Source: Natrarchaeobius oligotrophus (lineage in GTDB: Archaea > Halobacteriota > Halobacteria > Halobacteriales > Natrialbaceae). Taken from it: 43,121 bases of DNA. Both the position numbers and the translations under genes were made by a program. How positions within the stretch are numbered: the stretch's first letter is position 1; every line of letters begins with the position of its first letter. The stretch lies in assembly GCF_003841465.1 (NCBI RefSeq), contig NZ_REFZ01000022.1, positions 1 to 43,121 of the forward strand, written 5' to 3'. The notes below the pieces were generated by a model, which worked only from the letters and a program-made list of their open reading frames with translations, was not told where the DNA came from and did no database searches. This document shows, piece by piece, positions 1,070-9,570 of this stretch.

Positions 1070-2170
1070 TCACGGCTCGTCGTAGACGTCCGGGTTCGGG
1101 TCTCCCTGGACGTCGATCACCGCGAGCGCGCCCTTGTTTACGACCCGCGAGAGCGCGTGGTCGACGATCTTGATCGGGCCGGGAACGGGGAGTTCCATCT
1201 CGCCCGCGACGACGGTGCCGGGTGCGATCGGCGACGTCTCCACGTTTCGCGCCGGCTCCGAGAGCAGGTCGCCGTCGCGGTAGAACCGCGACCAGACGTT
1301 GCCGATCGGGTGGAGCGCGCTGGTGAAGTTCGGGCCGCCGTTGGCGAAGTACACTCGAACCGTCTCGCCGACTTCGGCCTCGACGGGACCGTGCTGGCCG
1401 TCCTCGGTGAAGCCGTAGGCCTCGCCGTTCATGAGGACGTACGTCGGGTCCTCGTCGGCCGAGGCGTCGAAGTCGAAGTGGTGGTGGCCGTCCTCGCCCG
1501 TATCGCCGTTGGTGTACAGCTCGTGCTGGCCGAAGTAGAACTCCCGGTCGACTTCCGGGAGCCCTTCTTTGGGTTCGACGAGGATCGCGCCGAACATCCC
1601 CAGGCTGATGTGTTGGTCCATGTTCGGGACCGCACAGTGGTAGATGTGCACGCCGGGGTACTTCGTCTTGAACCGGAGTCTGGCCGGCTCGTCACCGGGT
1701 GCGATCGTCGTCGCGACGGCGCCGCCGCCGGGTCCGTACACCGCGTGGAAGTCCACGTTGTGGGTGTCCCTGTTGTGTTCGTCGGGCACCTCGAAGGTGA
1801 GGTCGATCGTGTCGCCTTCGCGGACCCGGATCATCGGGCCGGGGATCTGGCCGTCGTAGGTCATGTACTCGACGGTGACGTCGGGTTCGACCTCCGCGAC
1901 CACCTCGATCGTCTCGAGGGTGATCTCGTGCGTCCGCGGCTCGTCCCAGTCGACCGGCGGCGGAACGTCGGTCGGGTCAGCCGCGATGTGGCCGACGCCG
2001 ACCTCCTCGGCCGGCGGCAGTCCCTGGTCGCCGTCGTCGGCGTCGGCGTTCCCGTTCCCCCCCGCCTCGCTCGGCGGAGCGTCGGTAGTGAGACAGCCGG
2101 CGACCGCGACGGCACCGGTCGCGCCGGCAGCCTGGATGAACGATCGTCGGTTAATGGTAGTTGTAGTCAT
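1070..2170 (-). CDS. nirK: Copper-containing nitrite reductase, Tat lipoprotein
   Basis: NirK reduces nitrite to nitric oxide outside the membrane during denitrification. The 366-residue protein begins with a twin-arginine motif (R8-R9, NRRSFIQAAG) and a lipobox cysteine (C26, VAGC), so it is probably exported folded and lipid-anchored. The two cupredoxin domains carry the full copper set: type 1 ligands H137, C179, H187 and M192; type 2 ligands H142, H178 and H338; catalytic D140 (HNVDFHA) and H287 (LHPIG). Length is normal. The His-rich loop after about residue 226 (DGHHHFDFD) lies where other NirKs are variable. A perfect CGAA-N4-TTCG palindrome lies 78 bases upstream of the start. No nar, nor or nos gene is in this window. 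Its electron donor is probably a halocyanin, not seen here. Confidence 0.95.
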   Translation of the reverse strand: MTTTTINRRSFIQAAGATGAVAVAGCLTTDAPPSEAGGNGNADADDGDQGLPPAEEVGVGHIAADPTDVPPPVDWDEPRTHEITLETIEVVAEVEPDVTVEYMTYDGQIPGPMIRVREGDTIDLTFEVPDEHNRDTHNVDFHAVYGPGGGAVATTIAPGDEPARLRFKTKYPGVHIYHCAVPNMDQHISLGMFGAILVEPKEGLPEVDREFYFGQHELYTNGDTGEDGHHHFDFDASADEDPTYVLMNGEAYGFTEDGQHGPVEAEVGETVRVYFANGGPNFTSALHPIGNVWSRFYRDGDLLSEPARNVETSPIAPGTVVAGEMELPVPGPIKIVDHALSRVVNKGALAVIDVQGDPNPDVYDEP

Positions 2171-2248: not shown

Positions 2249-2260
2249 CGAACATGTTCG
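2249..2260. promoter_or_regulatory. CGAA-N4-TTCG palindrome upstream of nirK
   Basis: CGAACATGTTCG is a perfect 12-base palindrome 78 bases upstream of the nirK start. A CGAA-N4-TTCG motif has been described at promoters controlled by the anaerobic regulator NarO in Haloferax volcanii. I recall this from the literature and cannot verify it here. NarO itself is not encoded in the window. Confidence 0.65.
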
Positions 2261-2339
2261 TGTCAGTGGTGGGACGAATCGGAGAAGAACGGCCGTCAGG
2301 CTGGATCGACGCGGTTCGACGTCCGTGGCGCGTCGACGA

Positions 2340-2603
2340 CTACGGCCGCCAGATTACGGTGACGACCTCCGTCCCGCCGTCGACCGTCTCGTAGGCGTAC
2401 CCCCTCTCCTCGAGTTTCGGAAAGAGAAACCGCGGCACGCGATCGTTTCGCTGGATCAGCACGGTCTCGTCGGGGAGGTCGACGAGCCGCTCGAGCGTGC
2501 GCTGTAGCGGCTCCGGGGGGCCGAGCGTTCGGACGTCGATCGTTTCGCGCGGTCGGTCCGACGGTGCGTCGGTTCGGTCGACGATCGATGCGAGCGACTG
2601 CAT
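2340..2603 (-). CDS. DUF2249 domain protein A (87 aa)
   Basis: A short protein of the DUF2249 family, a small alpha/beta fold related to TusA/SirA. The core is recognisable: DVRTLGPPEPLQRTLERL, then DETVLIQRNDRVPRFLFPKLEERG, then a last beta strand (TEVVTVIWRP). The first 20 residues form a polar extension that the other two copies lack. No cysteine is present, so TusA-like sulfur relay is not supported. DUF2249 genes recur beside nitrite and nitric oxide metabolism genes in haloarchaea; the biochemical role is unknown. Transcribed towards nirK, starting 170 bases upstream of the nirK palindrome region. Confidence 0.8.
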   Translation of the reverse strand: MQSLASIVDRTDAPSDRPRETIDVRTLGPPEPLQRTLERLVDLPDETVLIQRNDRVPRFLFPKLEERGYAYETVDGGTEVVTVIWRP

Positions 2604-2733
2604 ACGGGACCGATCGGCCCGCAGTCACCTCTCTCTCGTGCCGTACGTGTTCGCGACCCGACGGTCGACGACGGCGTTCGGCCACGCGGCTGTCGGGCGT
2701 CGGTACCGTGACGGACGGGGGCCGCGGCGCGTC

Positions 2734-2844
2734 TCACGGGGATCCGAGGTGGTGTGTCGCGTGCGTCCCGCAGTCCGCAAAAGCCGGCGGGTTGCAAACG
2801 AACGTATTCCCGGCTAGATCAGCGGGTATCTGCGGACCACGCAC
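2734..2844 (-). CDS. Possible 36-aa Cys/His-rich mini-ORF
   Basis: On the minus strand a GTG-started frame encodes about 36 residues ending CNPPAFADCGTHATHHLGSP. The cluster C-x7-C-x2-H-x2-HH looks like a small metal site. This is the only coding-like signal in the 283-base gap between two DUF2249 genes. A near-palindrome lies inside it, so it may instead be leader sequence. I do not recognise a family and the length gives no statistical support. Confidence 0.2.
   Translation of the reverse strand: MRGPQIPADLAGNTFVCNPPAFADCGTHATHHLGSP
2799..2810. promoter_or_regulatory. Near-match CGAA-N4-TTCC upstream of DUF2249 protein A
   Basis: CGAACGTATTCC differs at one position from the perfect palindromes at 2249, 3161, 3503 and 4411. 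It lies 195 bases upstream of DUF2249 protein A, further than the other boxes are from their genes, so assignment is weak. Confidence 0.35.
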
Positions 2845-2886
2845 CCGTGTGGCGGTCGGAGAATCCGTCTCTCGCCGAACGATCGA

Positions 2887-3120
2887 TCAGCGCTCGCGTT
2901 TCGGGAACCGCGCCACGAACTCCTCGGGACCGACGCGTTCGACCTCGTAGCCGTCGGCGTCGAAGCTCTCGACTTCGGCCTGGAACTCGTAGAACAGCGG
3001 CTTGGGCTCGTGGTCGTTGACGATGGTTAGCGTCTCGCCGGGCTCGAGCGCGTCGAACTGCTCGTGGATGGTCGGATGGCGGTTCACCGGCGGGACGTCC
3101 CTGACGTCGAGTCTCGTCAT
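2887..3120 (-). CDS. DUF2249 domain protein B (77 aa)
   Basis: The most typical of the three DUF2249 proteins: LDVRDVPPVNRHPTIHEQFD, then LEPGETLTIVNDHEPKPLFY, then EFQAEVESFDADGYEVERV. The NDHEPKPLFY stretch is the family signature. It has no cysteine. The ATG at 3118-3120 sits 40 bases downstream of a perfect CGAA-N4-TTCG palindrome. It has its own promoter-sized gap on either side and is probably transcribed separately from its paralogues. Confidence 0.85.
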   Translation of the reverse strand: MTRLDVRDVPPVNRHPTIHEQFDALEPGETLTIVNDHEPKPLFYEFQAEVESFDADGYEVERVGPEEFVARFPKRER

Positions 3121-3160
3121 GCGAACGGAGGTCGACGCCCCGGACGGATCGGTGTTCGTG

Positions 3161-3172
3161 CGAACCGGTTCG
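3161..3172. promoter_or_regulatory. CGAA-N4-TTCG palindrome upstream of DUF2249 protein B
   Basis: CGAACCGGTTCG is a fully symmetrical 12-mer 40 bases upstream of the ATG of DUF2249 protein B, matching the boxes at nirK and the other cluster promoters. Confidence 0.6.
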
Positions 3173-3195
3173 GCCGCCCCGCTTCGTCGGCACCC

Positions 3196-3423
3196 TCAGG
3201 CGCGTTCGATGAACACGCGCCAGACGCCGTCGTCGCGTCGTTCGCTCTCGTGAGCGAAGCCGCGCGCCTCGAGTACCTCGTACAGCGGAGCCGGTTCGAA
3301 GGGCGCGAGCAGCCGAAGCCGGTCGTCGGACTCGAGTTGCTCGAGTGCGGTCACGATGTCGTCGAACGGTGGGCCGTCGATCTCCCGGACGTCGAGCGTC
3401 CGGTCGGCTGGTTCGGATGCCAT
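3196..3423 (-). CDS. DUF2249 domain protein C (75 aa)
   Basis: Third DUF2249 paralogue: RTLDVREIDGPPFDDIVTAL, then LESDDRLRLLAPFEPAPLYE, then VLEARGFAHESERRDDGVWR. The ATG at 3423 is chosen because the domain begins eight residues later; a GTG at 3462 would add 13 Pro/Arg-rich residues with no family match. With the ATG start, the upstream palindrome at 3503 lies 79 bases away, nearly the same spacing as at nirK. The palindrome is shared with the divergent Bat-type regulator. No cysteine. Confidence 0.8.
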   Translation of the reverse strand: MASEPADRTLDVREIDGPPFDDIVTALEQLESDDRLRLLAPFEPAPLYEVLEARGFAHESERRDDGVWRVFIERA

Positions 3424-3502
3424 GGATCGCCGTTCGGGAGGTGGGCTGTTGGGCGTTGGCACGAATCAGTTCGGCACTCATTCCCAGTCGGTAGGAATCG
3501 GG

Positions 3503-3514
3503 CGAATATATTCG
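3503..3514. promoter_or_regulatory. CGAA-N4-TTCG palindrome between DUF2249 protein C and the HTH regulator
   Basis: CGAATATATTCG is symmetrical over all 12 bases and contains a TATATA core. It lies 38 bases upstream of the regulator start at 3553 and 79 bases upstream of DUF2249 protein C on the other strand, so one site could serve two divergent promoters. Its core may itself be the TATA element of the regulator. Confidence 0.65.
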
Positions 3515-3552
3515 TCACCACGGGTTCGTACTGACGATTAGAAGGTGATTAC

Positions 3553-4227
3553 ATGGCCCAGGCGACACTCACGGTGACGATGCCGGAGCAGGTGTGGATT
3601 CAGCAGGTCTCGACGGAGTACCCCGAGGCGACCTTCCGCGTGCTGGCCGCGGTTCCCGGTGCGGAGTCGGGGTTCGCGCTCGTTCGCGTCACCGGACCGG
3701 ACGTTCCGGAAGTCGTCAGCGACGTCGAGGCCCACCCACAGATCACGGAACTCACGCTCGTCCAGTGGACCGACGACGAGGCGACGATCCACTTCGAGAC
3801 GACGGCTCCGCTGTTGCTGTTTTCCTCGCGCGAGTCCGGAATGCCGATCGAACTCCCCGTCGAAATTCGCGACGGCGAGGCGACGGTCGAGGTGGCCGGC
3901 TCGCGAGAACGGCTCGCGGAACTGGCCGAACAGCTCGAGCAGTTCGGGCTCAGGTACCGCATCGACAACGTCACCGAACGCCTCCACGAGAGTCAACTCC
4001 TCTCGGATCGCCAGCTCGAGGTCGTCGCCGCCGCGGTCGAGCAGGGGTACTACGACACGCCCCGCCGGTGTTCGCTGACCGAACTCGCGGATCACCTCGA
4101 CATCGCCAAATCGACCTGCAGCGAGACGCTCCACCGCGCCGAGGAGGCGATCGTCAAGCGATTCGTCGAGGACGTTCCGGGCCTCGACGACCAAGACCCG
4201 CTCGTCGAACAGTTCGCGACCGGTTGA
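3553..4227 (+). CDS. Bat-type (HTH-10) transcriptional regulator
   Basis: A 224-residue regulator of the bacterio-opsin-activator type. Residues 1-155 are the N-terminal Bat-associated sensor region, opening with the beta strand ATLTVTMPEQVWI. Residues 165-220 are the HTH: LSDRQLEVVAAAVEQGYYDT, then SLTELADHLDIAKSTCSETL and HRAEEAIVKRFV. This HTH-10 architecture is shared with DmsR-like regulators of anaerobic respiration. There is no N-terminal multi-cysteine cluster, so it is not NarO-like. A good ribosome-binding site (GAAGGTGAT) precedes the ATG. Its position between nirK/DUF2249 genes and the Fe-S/NrfD operon suggests it controls one or both; this is inference. Confidence 0.85.
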   Translation: MAQATLTVTMPEQVWIQQVSTEYPEATFRVLAAVPGAESGFALVRVTGPDVPEVVSDVEAHPQITELTLVQWTDDEATIHFETTAPLLLFSSRESGMPIELPVEIRDGEATVEVAGSRERLAELAEQLEQFGLRYRIDNVTERLHESQLLSDRQLEVVAAAVEQGYYDTPRRCSLTELADHLDIAKSTCSETLHRAEEAIVKRFVEDVPGLDDQDPLVEQFATG

Positions 4228-4400
4228 GGTCGTTTCTCGTCGATCGGCGACGTCGCGTCGGTACTGATCCCCCACGCCGGCGGCCGATCTAGACTCCGTC
4301 CACCCGAGACGGACCGCTTCGTCCGTCTCGGATCGCTTCGTTTCCTCGCCGTCGGACGGTTTCCGGCCGGATCGTACTCGGGCCGTCGACGCGGGCACCG

Positions 4401-4422
4401 TATATAACACCGAACAAGTTCG
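4401..4422 (+). promoter_or_regulatory. TATA box and CGAA-N4-TTCG palindrome of the Fe-S/NrfD operon
   Basis: The 347-base gap 4228-4574 has no gene. It holds a strong TATA-like element (TATATAAC, 4401-4408) and, two bases later, the perfect palindrome CGAACAAGTTCG (4411-4422). A second, related palindrome (TGAACGTATTCA, 4501-4512) lies nearer the gene. If transcription starts about 25 bases after the TATA box, the operon has an untranslated leader of about 140 bases, long for a haloarchaeon. Confidence 0.6.
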
Positions 4423-4574
4423 CACCGGTTCTCACGAGTTGGAAATCGGCTCGATACTTCAATCGTATCTAGTTGTGACTCCGCACCAGTGGAGCACAAA
4501 TGAACGTATTCAAGTATCTGTCGCTGAGTATCCACTCCGTGAGAGAAACAACATGCCAGGGGTGTTCTGAGTAG

Positions 4575-6179
4575 ATGAGTACAGACGACGAGTCATTCCA
4601 CCCGCTCGGCGAGGAGTGGGAGAACGATCTCGAGGCCATGCTCGACGATACCGAGTACGACAGCGATCTCGGGATGGACATGGCCAGAGACGCGATGCGC
4701 GTCACCAAAGGCGAACTGTCCGAGGCCGAGTTCCACGAGAAGTACCACGAGGACGTCATGGAGGAGTTCGGCGTCGACGACCGTCCCACCGAGGAGGCCT
4801 ACGAGGAGCTGAAGGCCGCCGAGGAGGGGACGTTCTCCCGCGTGCTCTCGACGTTCGAGGGCGACGGCGAGGACGGTCGCCGCGACGTGATGAAAAAGAT
4901 GGGGGCGGGAGCCGCGTTCGTCGGACTCGGTGCCTGGGGAACCGCCGACGCCGGCGAACCGGAGCCGAACGTCGCCGCCCAGGAGGACGACGACGGCGAG
5001 GACGGCATCCAGTGGGGGATGGCGATCGATCTCGAGCGCTGTGACGGCTGTCTCTCCTGCGTGACCGCCTGCTCCCAGGAGAACGACCTGGACCAGGGGG
5101 TCAACTGGATGTACGTCCTCGACTACGAGGAGCCCCGAGGCGGCGCGGACACGAGCCGAAACCGGCTCGTCCGACCGTGCCAGCACTGCACCGACGCGCC
5201 GTGTGAGAAGGTGTGCCCGACGACGGCCCGTCACACCCGCGACAGCGACGGTCTCGTCCTGACCGACTACGACGTCTGCATCGGCTGTCGGTACTGTCAG
5301 GTCGCCTGTCCCTACGGCGTCAACTACTTCCAGTGGGACGAACCCGACGCGAGCATCGACGAAGTTCGCGAGCACGCCGAACAGATGGGCGCGGAGAACG
5401 ACCACCTGTACGACGAGCGCGGCCGGTGGACCGACAGCCGCGCGCCTCGCGGCGTCATGAGCAAGTGTACGATGTGTCCGACCCGCCAGGACGGGTTCAA
5501 AGGCGACGAGTACGTCGGGACGACGGCCTGCGAAGAAGCGTGTCCGCCGGACGCGATCCAGTTCGGAAACATGAACGATCCCGACAGCGACCCACAGACG
5601 TACATCGACAACCCGAGCCGGGGACGCGCGCTCGTCCGGATGGACGTCAGCGCACCCTCGGCCGACACGCTCGAGGAGCAACTCGACGGCGCCGACGACG
5701 ACCTCGAGTCCGTCCTCGACGCGTCCGAGGACCTCGACGAGGAGATGCTCCGGATCCTCCTTGCGATCGACATCGTCACCGAGGAGATGGGCGTCGGCGA
5801 CTCCGAGTACGTCGAGTACGAACAGAACATTCTGGAGATCTTCGACGTGCTCGAGTCTCACGGCCTCGACCTCGCGAGCGAGGACGTCCTCGTCCCGCTC
5901 CGTCTGGCGGACGAGCCGGGCGAAGACGACGAGTTCGACGGGCCGAGCGAAAGCGACGCGCAGGCCGCACTCGAGGCCTACGCCGGTTCGCCCGAGTCGA
6001 ACTTCCGGCTGCTCGAGGACATCGGGACCAACCCGAACATCGTCTACCTGGGTAACGAACCTGGTCCGAACGCACAGCAGGTCGACGGTCCGGTCGCCTA
6101 CGACGACGTGGGCCTGACGGACAACCGCAAGGACGTGCTCGACGAGAAGACGGTCGGTGACGCAGGGGTGTCGCTATGA
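4575..6179 (+). CDS. Four-cluster [4Fe-4S] protein (DmsB/PsrB/NrfC type) with internal Tat motif
   Basis: An electron-transfer subunit with 16 cluster cysteines in four groups: C156-C159-C162-C166, C202-C205-C210-C214, C235-C238-C241-C245 and C298-C301-C319-C323. This is the DmsB/PsrB/NrfC pattern. Two things are unusual. A twin-arginine stretch (GRRDVMKKMGAGAAFVGLGA) begins only at residue 101, after 100 acidic residues with no Fe-S motif. Between the last cysteines and the usual C-terminal tail (NFRLLEDIGTNPNIVYLG, from about 476) lies an acidic helical insert of about 120 residues (355-474). Length 534 against about 200-300 for relatives. The stop overlaps the next start by four bases. The family passes electrons between quinone and a redox partner. 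No molybdopterin subunit is encoded nearby. Confidence 0.88.
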   Translation: MSTDDESFHPLGEEWENDLEAMLDDTEYDSDLGMDMARDAMRVTKGELSEAEFHEKYHEDVMEEFGVDDRPTEEAYEELKAAEEGTFSRVLSTFEGDGEDGRRDVMKKMGAGAAFVGLGAWGTADAGEPEPNVAAQEDDDGEDGIQWGMAIDLERCDGCLSCVTACSQENDLDQGVNWMYVLDYEEPRGGADTSRNRLVRPCQHCTDAPCEKVCPTTARHTRDSDGLVLTDYDVCIGCRYCQVACPYGVNYFQWDEPDASIDEVREHAEQMGAENDHLYDERGRWTDSRAPRGVMSKCTMCPTRQDGFKGDEYVGTTACEEACPPDAIQFGNMNDPDSDPQTYIDNPSRGRALVRMDVSAPSADTLEEQLDGADDDLESVLDASEDLDEEMLRILLAIDIVTEEMGVGDSEYVEYEQNILEIFDVLESHGLDLASEDVLVPLRLADEPGEDDEFDGPSESDAQAALEAYAGSPESNFRLLEDIGTNPNIVYLGNEPGPNAQQVDGPVAYDDVGLTDNRKDVLDEKTVGDAGVSL

Positions 6180-7585
6180 GCACGAAGACGCCGACCAAGG
6201 AGGACATCCTCCGTCCGACCAACACGTTCACGAAGAAGTACGTCGCGCTCTTTGGCGTCTGCGCCCTCGTGTTCGGTGCGTTCCTGGTCGGCTGGCTGTA
6301 CCAGCTACAGCAGGGGCTGGCCGTCACCGGCCTCTCCGACTGGGGCTCGGGCGGCGGCGTCACGTGGGGACTGTACATCGGCGCGTTCATCTGGTGGGTC
6401 GGCATCGCCCACGGCGGTATCATCCTCTCGGCCGCGGTCAGGCTGCTCGGGATGGACCGATACATGCCGGTCGCTCGACTCGCGGAACTGCTGACGATCG
6501 CCGGCCTCTCCGCGGCCGGTTTCTACATTCTCGTCCACATGGGCCGTCCGGACCGGATGGTCACGAGCGTGCTCGGCCACTACCACATCACGGTCAACAA
6601 CTCGCCGCTGGTGTGGGACGTCACCGTCATCACGGCCTACTTCGTGCTGACGGCGACCTACCTCGGCCTCACGCTTCGATACGACATCTCGCGGCTTCGC
6701 GATCAGCTTCCCTCGTTCGCGCCGGAAGTCGGCGGCAAACAGCTTCCCGACGTGTATGGACTGGTCTACGACGCGATGACGGTCGGCTACAGCGAGAAAG
6801 AAGACGAGATCATCGAGCGGATGGTCTGGTGGGTCGCGCTGGCGATCATCATCATGGCTCCGCTGTTGCTCCACGGCGGGGTCATCCCGTGGCTGTTCGC
6901 CGTCCTGCCGAACTATCCGGGCTGGTTCGGTGCGATCCAGGGGCCGCAGTTCCTGACGATCGCGCTGACGTCCGCGATCAGCGGCGTCATCCTCGTTTCC
7001 TACGCGTTCCGTCGCGCGTACGACTGGGATCACATCATCACCGACGACATCTTCCGCGGACTCCTGCTGTGGCTCGGCTTCTTCAGCCTGCTGTTCCTGT
7101 GGCTGCAGCTCCAGCAGCTCACCGCGGGTAGCTTCGCGCCGACGGTCGACCACGCGGACGCGACCGCCTCCAAGTTCTCGCACCCGATGTACATCGTTCC
7201 GATTCTGATGGTACTCGGCGTCCTCGCGTACATCTTCGCGACGACGCTTCGGCCGTCGCTGTTCAGCAAGAAGCGGGCGATCGTCGCCGGCGTGTTCGTG
7301 CTGTTCGCGACGCTCGTCGAGAAGACCTACTTCGTCATCTCGGGCTTTTGGTATCCGACGTTCAGCATCTACGAGGGAACGCCCGGCGAGTACTTCCCGA
7401 GCGCGATCGAGCTGATGTCGGTGTTCGGTACGATCGGGATGGTCACGCTGATCTTCCTGGTCGTTTCGAAGCTGGTTCCGGTCGTCGAACTCCACGCGGT
7501 CGAGCACCTTCGCGGTGATCACGGCCACGACGGCGATCACGAGTCAGCCCACGACGCCGCGACCGAACCGGAGGTGGAAGCATGA
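6176..7585 (+). CDS. NrfD/PsrC-type quinone-site membrane subunit
   Basis: A 469-residue integral membrane protein with about ten hydrophobic helices, as expected for the long NrfD/PsrC/ActC branch that binds (mena)quinol and works with the Fe-S protein encoded just upstream. Landmarks are WGLYIGAFIWWVGIAHGG in the second helix, GFYILVHMGRPDRM after the third, and LLHGGVIPW in the fifth. The C-terminus is His/Asp-rich (RGDHGHDGDHESAHD) and could bind metal. The start codon overlaps the previous stop (ATGA), and its own stop overlaps the start of the small subunit, implying translational coupling and a shared complex. Confidence 0.88.
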   Translation: MSTKTPTKEDILRPTNTFTKKYVALFGVCALVFGAFLVGWLYQLQQGLAVTGLSDWGSGGGVTWGLYIGAFIWWVGIAHGGIILSAAVRLLGMDRYMPVARLAELLTIAGLSAAGFYILVHMGRPDRMVTSVLGHYHITVNNSPLVWDVTVITAYFVLTATYLGLTLRYDISRLRDQLPSFAPEVGGKQLPDVYGLVYDAMTVGYSEKEDEIIERMVWWVALAIIIMAPLLLHGGVIPWLFAVLPNYPGWFGAIQGPQFLTIALTSAISGVILVSYAFRRAYDWDHIITDDIFRGLLLWLGFFSLLFLWLQLQQLTAGSFAPTVDHADATASKFSHPMYIVPILMVLGVLAYIFATTLRPSLFSKKRAIVAGVFVLFATLVEKTYFVISGFWYPTFSIYEGTPGEYFPSAIELMSVFGTIGMVTLIFLVVSKLVPVVELHAVEHLRGDHGHDGDHESAHDAATEPEVEA

Positions 7586-7899
7586 TCGCGCCGGCATCGA
7601 TCGCGTCCGCCCTCTCGTTCGTCCTCTATCACGGCTACGAAGGAACGGAAGGGCTGACCGGCTTCCCGAACATCGGAACCTACCTCATCTTCGGGGTCAT
7701 CCTGGTTCCCGTCTACGTGATGGTGATCGCGTGGTTCGTCGGCGAACCGCGCGACTCCAAGACCGGCCTGATGGGCGTCACCTACCTCGTCGGGATCACC
7801 GCACAGATGTGGATCGGAATGTTCTTCCTGACGATGATCATCGGCATCGTCTTCTACGGTGGGCTGCCCGAACCGTTCGGTTCGGTCGGCCCGCCGTAA
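7582..7899 (+). CDS. Small membrane subunit of the Fe-S/NrfD operon (105 aa), copy 1
   Basis: A 105-residue protein with two long hydrophobic segments (IFGVILVPVYVMVIAWFVG and a second of about 30 residues ending MIIGIVFYGG) and a conserved N-terminal patch LYHGYEGTEGLTGFPN. It overlaps the NrfD stop by four bases and so is probably part of the complex. I do not recognise a named family. It is clearly paralogous to the next gene. A T-rich run after its stop (bases 7919-7936) may attenuate or end transcription. Confidence 0.75.
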   Translation: MIAPASIASALSFVLYHGYEGTEGLTGFPNIGTYLIFGVILVPVYVMVIAWFVGEPRDSKTGLMGVTYLVGITAQMWIGMFFLTMIIGIVFYGGLPEPFGSVGPP

Positions 7900-8007: not shown

Positions 8008-8310
8008 ATGATTCCACACCGCCTGCTCGCGTCCGTTCTCTACCACGGCTACGGACCGACCGAAGGGCTGACCGGATTTCCGAACACCGGAACGTGGCTC
8101 ATCTTCGGCGTCGTGTTGGTTCCGATCTACGCGATGGTCGTCGCCTGGTTCGTCGGCGTCCCTCGAGACACGAAGACGGGGCTACTCGGCGTCACCTACC
8201 TCGTCGGGTTGACGACGACGATGTGGGTTTCGATGCTGGTGTTGACGGTGATGCTCGGGATCGTCTTCTTCGGCGGTGCGCCCGAGCCGTTCTCCCCACG
8301 CGGACCGTAG
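8008..8310 (+). CDS. Small membrane subunit, copy 2 (100 aa)
   Basis: Paralogue of the preceding gene, alignable end to end without gaps after the first few residues: LYHGYGPTEGLTGFPN, IFGVVLVPIYAMVVAWFVG, GVTYLVGLTTTMW. Roughly two thirds of residues match by eye. It starts 108 bases after copy 1, with a gap long enough for its own promoter. Either both copies sit in one complex, or they are alternatives used under different conditions; the sequence does not decide. Confidence 0.72.
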   Translation: MIPHRLLASVLYHGYGPTEGLTGFPNTGTWLIFGVVLVPIYAMVVAWFVGVPRDTKTGLLGVTYLVGLTTTMWVSMLVLTVMLGIVFFGGAPEPFSPRGP

Positions 8311-8478: not shown

Positions 8479-9570
8479 ATGAGTATCACCGAACACGAAC
8501 TCAAAATCGAACTCGAGGGGATCGAGGACCCGGACATCGGCGAGGACATCGTCTCGCTCGGACTCGTCAACGACGTCACCATCGAGGACGAGACCGCCCG
8601 GATCTCGCTCGCGTTCAACGCACCCTACGCGCCCTCCGAGATGGAGATCGGCAACCGCATCCGAGAGGTCTGTGACGAAGCCGGCCTCGAGGCCGACCTG
8701 CGCGCACACGTCGGTCAGGAACACGGTTTCGACGACGAAGTGTTGCCCCGCGTGCGAAACGTGATCGCCGTCGCCTCCGGGAAAGGCGGCGTCGGGAAGA
8801 CGACGGTCGCCGCGAACCTCGCCGCCGGCCTCGAGAAACGCGGCGCGATGGTGGGCATCCTCGATGCGGACATCCACGGCCCGAACGTTCCCCGCATCCT
8901 GCCGGTCGAGAGCGAACCCGGCGTCACGCCCAACGAGGAGATCGTTCCGCCCCGGTCCGACGGCGTCCGCGTCATCAGCATGGGCTTCATGATGGAAGAG
9001 GAGGACGATCCCGCGATCCTCCGCGGTCCGATGGTGAACAAGTTCATGATGAAGTTTCTCGAGGGCGTCGAGTGGGGTCGACTCGACTACCTCGTCGTCG
9101 ACCTGCCGCCGGGAACCGGCGACGCGACGCTGAACCTGCTGCAGTCGATGCCGGTGACGGGCTCGGTCGTCGTCACGACGCCCCAGGAGATGGCGCTCGA
9201 CGACACCCGCAAGGGCATCCAGATGTTCAACAAACACGACACGCCCGTCCTCGGCGTCGTCGAGAACATGAGTTCGTTCATCTGTCCGAGCTGTGGCGAC
9301 CAGCACGGCCTGTTCGGCACCGAAGGCGCCGACAGCATCGTCGACAGGTACGACGTCCCGCTGCTCGGGCGGATCCCGATCCATCCGGACTTCGGCGCGG
9401 ACGGCAGCGACGGCGCGATCGTCAAAAACGACGAGAGCCCCGTCCAGGAGCCGGTCGAGGAACTCGTCGCGGAGATCTCGAACCGGATCGGCGAGATCAA
9501 CCGCCGCACGGTCGACGAGCACACCGCCGATACGCCCGACGACGCCCTGCCGACCGAACTCGAGGACTGA
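8479..9570 (+). CDS. Mrp/NBP35-type Fe-S cluster carrier ATPase with N-terminal MIP18 (DUF59) domain
   Basis: A cytosolic P-loop protein thought to hold and deliver [4Fe-4S] clusters to apoproteins. Residues 1-85 form the DUF59/MIP18 domain (GIEDPDIGEDIVSLGLVNDV). Residues 94-350 are the deviant Walker ATPase: SGKGGVGKTT (100-109), switch region DADIHGPNVP, and DLPPGTGD. The paired cysteines C269 and C272 (FICPSCGD) are the bridging cluster ligands of Mrp/ApbC. All key residues are present. The preceding 168 bases carry no gene. Haloarchaea often have several Mrp paralogues. Proximity to the 16-cysteine Fe-S protein is suggestive but there is no overlap or shared operon. Confidence 0.92.
   Translation: MSITEHELKIELEGIEDPDIGEDIVSLGLVNDVTIEDETARISLAFNAPYAPSEMEIGNRIREVCDEAGLEADLRAHVGQEHGFDDEVLPRVRNVIAVASGKGGVGKTTVAANLAAGLEKRGAMVGILDADIHGPNVPRILPVESEPGVTPNEEIVPPRSDGVRVISMGFMMEEEDDPAILRGPMVNKFMMKFLEGVEWGRLDYLVVDLPPGTGDATLNLLQSMPVTGSVVVTTPQEMALDDTRKGIQMFNKHDTPVLGVVENMSSFICPSCGDQHGLFGTEGADSIVDRYDVPLLGRIPIHPDFGADGSDGAIVKNDESPVQEPVEELVAEISNRIGEINRRTVDEHTADTPDDALPTELED

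Follow-up and report, generated by a model that had tools for sequence, protein, structure and literature searches.

A conserved CGAA-N4-TTCG palindrome at a haloarchaeal nirK locus and a Bat-type regulator as its candidate reader

Which genes are governed by the palindrome of haloarchaeal denitrification promoters, and which protein reads it, are the questions raised by the nirK locus described here. In Haloferax mediterranei, denitrification promoters carry the palindrome CGAAYATDKTYG, located 79 nt before nirK (PMC10062603 and PMC11218638, both citing Hattori 2016), and the reader protein of the haloarchaeal motif was stated to be unknown (PMC11218638). We analyzed the window, i.e., the whole 43-kb stretch of contig C22 from a haloarchaeal genome of 4.61 Mb, which its closest named relatives place in Natrialbaceae. 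The initial annotation of this DNA had linked CGAA-N4-TTCG (hereafter E1) to the NarO regulon of Haloferax volcanii, and E1 matches the motif of both papers.

The locus contains nirK (1070–2170, minus strand), which encodes a TAT-exported copper nitrite reductase of 366 aa (NCBIfam TIGR02376, 361 bits, above the cut-off). PF10006 matches on the same strand revealed three DUF2249 genes, where two had been counted initially: A (2340–2603, 52.6 bits), B (2887–3120, 87 bits), and C (3196–3423, 67 bits). No others were found elsewhere in the genome. For DUF2249-C, the ATG at 3423 was favored over the GTG at 3462, because the ATG start is kept in relatives. On the plus strand, a Bat-type regulator of 224 aa (3553–4227), a member of a haloarchaea-wide orthologue clade, contains a BAT domain and HTH_10 and exceeded the Pfam gathering scores (PF15915, 27.3 against a cut-off of 25.8; PF04967, 68.9 against 23.1). 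The remaining features, all on the plus strand, are a conserved upstream ORF of 24 codons (4501–4574) with its stop immediately 5′ of the next ATG; a DsrO/QrcC-like Fe-S protein with Ferredoxin_N and 4Fe-4S domains (4575–6179); an NrfD-type membrane subunit (6176–7585; PF03916, 77.7 bits); two small proteins related to each other, the first of 105 aa without a family match (7582–7899) and the second of 100 aa (8008–8310); and an Mrp/ApbC-type Fe-S carrier P-loop NTPase (8479–9570; PF10609, 305 bits), the last of the gene set, as indicated by synteny.

Perfect E1 copies were located at 2249, 3161, 3462, 3503, and 4411, that is, five copies in 2.17 kb. All four perfect palindromes of the initial annotation were present, and a fifth, at 3462–3473, had been overlooked. 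The initial expectation of about 0.7 copies in 43 kb was too low, as dinucleotide shuffling gave a mean of 2.66; the whole window contains 7 perfect copies, a number reached in 3 of 100 shuffles. Genome-wide, CGAA-N4-TTCG occurs 395 times, corresponding to 0.19 expected in the block and a Poisson P(≥5) of 1.6e-6. The form CGAAYNNRTTCG, common to all five block copies, occurs 135 times (0.064 expected, P = 8e-9); since the block was chosen after the fact, multiplying by the approximately 2,100 such windows raises P to about 2e-5. The strict core CGAAYATRTTCG is present only twice in the genome, in the nirK promoter and in the Bat-type regulator promoter.

The 395 genomic copies and the location of most sampled background sites (12 of 15) within ORFs would suit the view that these palindromes merely reflect the CGA/TCG richness of haloarchaeal DNA. 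However, the local density, the exact spacing, the conservation across families, and the complete absence of E1 from gene-body and paralogue controls make this extremely improbable. We confirmed that the E1 palindrome is real, clustered locally far above chance, and conserved. Because background copies mostly lie within ORFs, the motif alone is not diagnostic of the regulon, whereas density, position, and conservation are, and calling a genome-wide regulon from E1 alone was dropped.

The positions of the copies are regular. In the nirK promoter, CGAACATGTTCG (2249–2260), one of the two strict-core sites, is 78 nt 5′ of the ATG; in other families, most nirK loci have the start of this copy at −90 to −93, and one genus has it at about −115. 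DUF2249-A has an E1-like site with one mismatch, CGAACACGTACG (2642–2653, minus strand), 38 nt 5′ of its ATG, which is kept as CGAACNNGTNCGG at the matching place in most relatives. This site is the conserved counterpart, and the single-mismatch site reported initially at 2799 is not conserved in position. The copy of DUF2249-B, CGAACCGGTTCG (3161–3172), lies 40 nt 5′ of the ATG and is perfect with equal spacing in eight of the nine relatives shown. DUF2249-C and the Bat-type regulator share a promoter with two copies: CGAATCAGTTCG (3462–3473) is 38 nt 5′ of DUF2249-C and 79 nt 5′ of the regulator, and CGAATATATTCG (3503–3514) is 38 nt 5′ of the regulator ATG and 79 nt 5′ of DUF2249-C, so that each gene has one E1 at 38 nt and one at 79 nt. 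The distance to the ATG is 38–40 nt for the three DUF2249 genes and the regulator, and about 152 nt for the Fe-S/NrfD operon, whose copy, CGAACAAGTTCG (4411–4422), has no mismatch in 21 of the 23 promoters of operon orthologues. The spacings of 78 nt (nirK) and 79 nt (DUF2249-C) given initially were correct. The accompanying proposal that the Fe-S/NrfD and DUF2249 genes join the set of nirK was likewise supported, as E1 is common to all of them with spacing conserved in many relatives. On this comparative evidence, the predicted membership of all these genes and of the regulator in one E1 regulon is strongly supported.

This arrangement resembles that of H. mediterranei, in which the same palindrome is found 79 nt (78 nt here) from nirK and E1 likewise accompanies nirK, DUF2249 genes, and a Bat-type gene. 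In that species, mutation of E1 lowers the activity of the nos and nor promoters (PMC10062603), and E1-bearing genes, including Bat-type and DUF2249 genes, go up under denitrification (PMC11218638). A cluster of H. larsenii has E1 before nor, Bat-type, multicopper oxidase (nirK), and halocyanin genes. The present locus differs from H. mediterranei in that a second, phased palindrome is present and the regulon takes in the Fe-S/NrfD/Mrp operon; NrfD is absent from the main text of PMC10062603 and PMC11218638. A further difference is that no nor was found in this genome: the haem-copper oxidase matches inspected, a weak one on contig C7 aside, resemble oxygen reductases and were for this reason not called nor. 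Upstream of nosZ (L254), a one-mismatch E1, CGAACACGTTCA, was located 133 nt 5′ of the ATG, and the corresponding change of the last E1 base made no significant difference in H. mediterranei (PMC10062603).

When 293 genomes from the order were sampled, 256 contained relatives of the Bat-type regulator, and the weakest of these relatives may be paralogues. We scanned the 200 nt 5′ of 40 distant regulator orthologues with all 256 four-base half-sites at a spacer of 4. CGAA-N4-TTCG ranked at the top, occurring in 32 of the 40 promoters, while the runner-up occurred in 7. When spacers of 0–11 were compared, every spacer other than 4 gave at most 2, and gene-body control windows contained no CGAA-N4-TTCG (0/40). 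In a phylogenetic tree, 67 regulator orthologues grouped as a single clade with a support of 0.86, and 29 HTH_10 paralogues from the genome of the window fell outside it. E1 was found near the start of 51 of the 67 orthologues and none of the 29 paralogues. The other 16 orthologues, 8 of them from Natrialbaceae, have no perfect E1, indicating that autoregulation is not universal.

The nirK promoters follow the same distribution. E1 with at most one mismatch was present in 38 of 43 loci from regulator-bearing genomes (background 6%) and in one of six loci from genomes in which no close regulator orthologue was found; these six loci come from five genomes, three of which belong to one genus and two of which are incomplete. 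As the counted nirK sequences are related, the Fisher value of 7e-4 overstates their independence. The regulator is also kept in genomes without nirK, which counts against this reading. These findings suggest that the Bat-type HTH_10 gene most likely encodes the E1 reader, with its own promoter among the targets, an assignment that is new here. The bacterio-opsin activator Bat has the same combination of BAT domain and HTH_10, but the window regulator has no PAS or GAF match and a different gene neighborhood. Its AlphaFold model (pLDDT 82, pTM 0.57) gave no meaningful PDB match.

The initial annotation had named NarO as the regulator. Under this explanation, E1 would be the target of NarO, or of some other general anaerobic regulator with its gene at another locus, and the Bat-type gene would be only a member of the regulon. 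According to PMC10062603, denitrification in Haloferax volcanii is under the control of NarO, the gene for which lies upstream of the nar operon; Hattori 2016 is cited there for a similar motif in several genera. The present genome has 47 HTH_10 matches, one of which is separated from a NarGH-like operon by some 4 kb, and HTH_10 is common to NarO and the window regulator. However, the H. mediterranei motif works without any NarO homologue (PMC10062603), E1 follows the Bat-type clade and occupies the clade's own promoter across families, and no perfect E1 was found in the NarGH-like promoter on contig C7. The naming of NarO was thus unsupported, and we consider this explanation unlikely. The absence of NarO from H. 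mediterranei, together with the half-site scan, the tree, and the co-occurrence with nirK, all of which are associations, favors the Bat-type protein over NarO.

NarO has an N-terminal cysteine motif, whereas the only cysteines of the window regulator, 173 and 189, are in the DNA-binding region, and no N-terminal cysteine was found among the conserved columns of its 67 orthologues. The NarGH-like genes are on another contig than the window regulator (L236, 8301–13351); they belong to the type II DMSO-reductase family with scores below the equivalog cut-offs. Separate control of nar is consistent with H. mediterranei (PMC10062603). An HTH_10 gene at 4126–4803 of L236, about 4 kb from the NarGH-like operon, has cysteines 31 and 69 and is possibly the counterpart of NarO/DmsR.

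Alignment of promoters revealed the second palindrome, E2 (TTCYCA-N4/5-TRRGAA), which was scored as TTCYCA-N4/5-TGRGAA with at most two mismatches. No earlier description of it was found in a limited literature search. In the window, TTCCCAGTCGGTAGGAA (3481–3497) lies between both E1 copies of the DUF2249-C/regulator promoter and is the sole TTCYCA-N5-TRRGAA in the genome, and TTCTCACGAGTTGGAA (4429–4444) lies 6 nt 3′ of the Fe-S E1. The E2 of the window nirK is weak, with three mismatches (TTCTCCCCGTTCAAGAA). E2 was present in 68% of 37 nirK promoters, those of distant haloarchaea among them, compared to 0.2% of gene-body windows, and in all 22 Fe-S promoters of relatives. E1 and E2 were separated by 6 nt in all 21 Fe-S promoters compared and in 17 of 31 nirK promoters; 9 further nirK promoters had a gap of 26 nt, longer by two turns. 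Measured between centers, the distance was 20 or 20.5 bp in each of the 21 Fe-S promoters, and at nirK it was mostly 20.5 or 40.5 bp. This spacing corresponds to about two or four helical turns and suggests that the phased E1–E2 composite, new here, is a two-input operator in Fe-S and most nirK promoters. E2-like sequences were also observed after the one-mismatch E1 of nosZ and at 13166 of L236 in the NarGH-like locus.

Alternatively, the Bat-type regulator may bind E2, with another factor at E1. Among Natrialbaceae, E2 was detected in front of the regulator in 21 of 24 cases, and the regulator promoters of L182 and L186 carry a perfect E2 and no E1, which means that the regulator could bind E2. 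However, only 2 of the 40 distant regulator promoters have E2 compared to 32 with E1, and the nirK promoters of a regulator-negative genus (L257–L259) carry E2 and no E1. We regard this assignment as quite unlikely and retain E1 as the predicted site of the Bat-type regulator.

At the named Natrialbaceae loci, the Fe-S/NrfD operon is 3′ of the regulator in nearly all cases, and many of these loci lack nirK and the DUF2249 genes. With its perfect E1 in 21 of 23 promoters, the operon is a constant member of the predicted regulon in Natrialbaceae, even at loci without nirK and DUF2249 genes, which is also new here. E1 also precedes this operon outside Natrialbaceae, in L232 and L233, which represent two genomes of a different family. 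In NCBIfam, the Fe-S and NrfD proteins came closest to the DsrOP/QrcCD modules, but all scores are below the curated cut-offs and the operon has no catalytic or cytochrome subunit. A second NrfD paralogue (L216, 4422–5720, contig C3) is 76% identical to the window NrfD, and most Natrialbaceae carry both. No Fe-S or Mrp relatives were detected beside this paralogue, and no CGAAYNNRTTCG was found near it in 14 genomes. In H. mediterranei, the nar operon encodes a P-loop NTPase Fe-S carrier with a DUF2249 domain (PMC11218638), a fusion hinting that Mrp-type carriers, such as the product of the final gene of the set, and DUF2249 proteins may be functionally linked.

Approximately 150 nt 5′ of the Fe-S gene (4423–4574) are strongly conserved in 23 relatives. 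An upstream ORF of 16–26 codons was present in 23 of 23 leader sequences, and its stop, usually ≤4 nt from the Fe-S start, suggests translational coupling. Coding constraint on this ORF was rejected, as substitutions showed little codon periodicity. The window leader folds well alone (z = −3.2); a structured RNA leader was set aside, because the 23-sequence alignment backs only a weak short hairpin, and comparison of the leader with Rfam gave nothing credible. A TATA-like box immediately upstream of the Fe-S E1 means that the protein at this promoter may be a repressor rather than an activator, but the E1–E2 geometry is the same as that of nirK.

From the observed cluster, positions, conservation, phasing, and co-occurrence, we infer that E1 is bound, which protein binds it, that the outcome is activation and not repression, and which signal is involved. 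We consider it probable that E1 is an anaerobic/denitrification operator with a Bat-type activator at E1 and a second factor at E2. A dimer of the Bat-type regulator would sit on E1 at fixed distances from the ATG and activate nirK, the three DUF2249 genes, and the Fe-S/NrfD/Mrp operon, and binding to its own promoter would result in autoregulation. Activation is suggested by the position of E1 just upstream of probable promoters and by the loss of activity on E1 mutation in H. mediterranei. E2, centered 20–20.5 bp from E1 in the Fe-S and most nirK promoters, would place the second factor on the same helix face, forming a two-input switch. The signal may be low oxygen or N-oxides, possibly acting through the DUF2249 proteins. 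A passage of PMC11218638 describes such proteins as proposed nitrate sensors in Thermus, and, speculatively, they could feed the signal to the regulator here.

The motif itself was already known; this analysis contributes a candidate for its reader and a second, phased operator that the Fe-S/NrfD operon also carries. In a tentative, wider form of this proposal, the Bat-type protein would be the haloarchaea-wide reader, working with the second factor at phased E1–E2 sites on N-oxide and low-oxygen inputs, and the Fe-S/NrfD/Mrp operon would be a core respiratory branch in Natrialbaceae independent of nirK. The analysis gives exact sites to mutate, adds an electron-transfer operon to the predicted regulon, and, by way of E2, predicts a second regulator. 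How nitrite reduction is controlled in hypersaline settings thereby becomes directly testable in genetically tractable haloarchaea.
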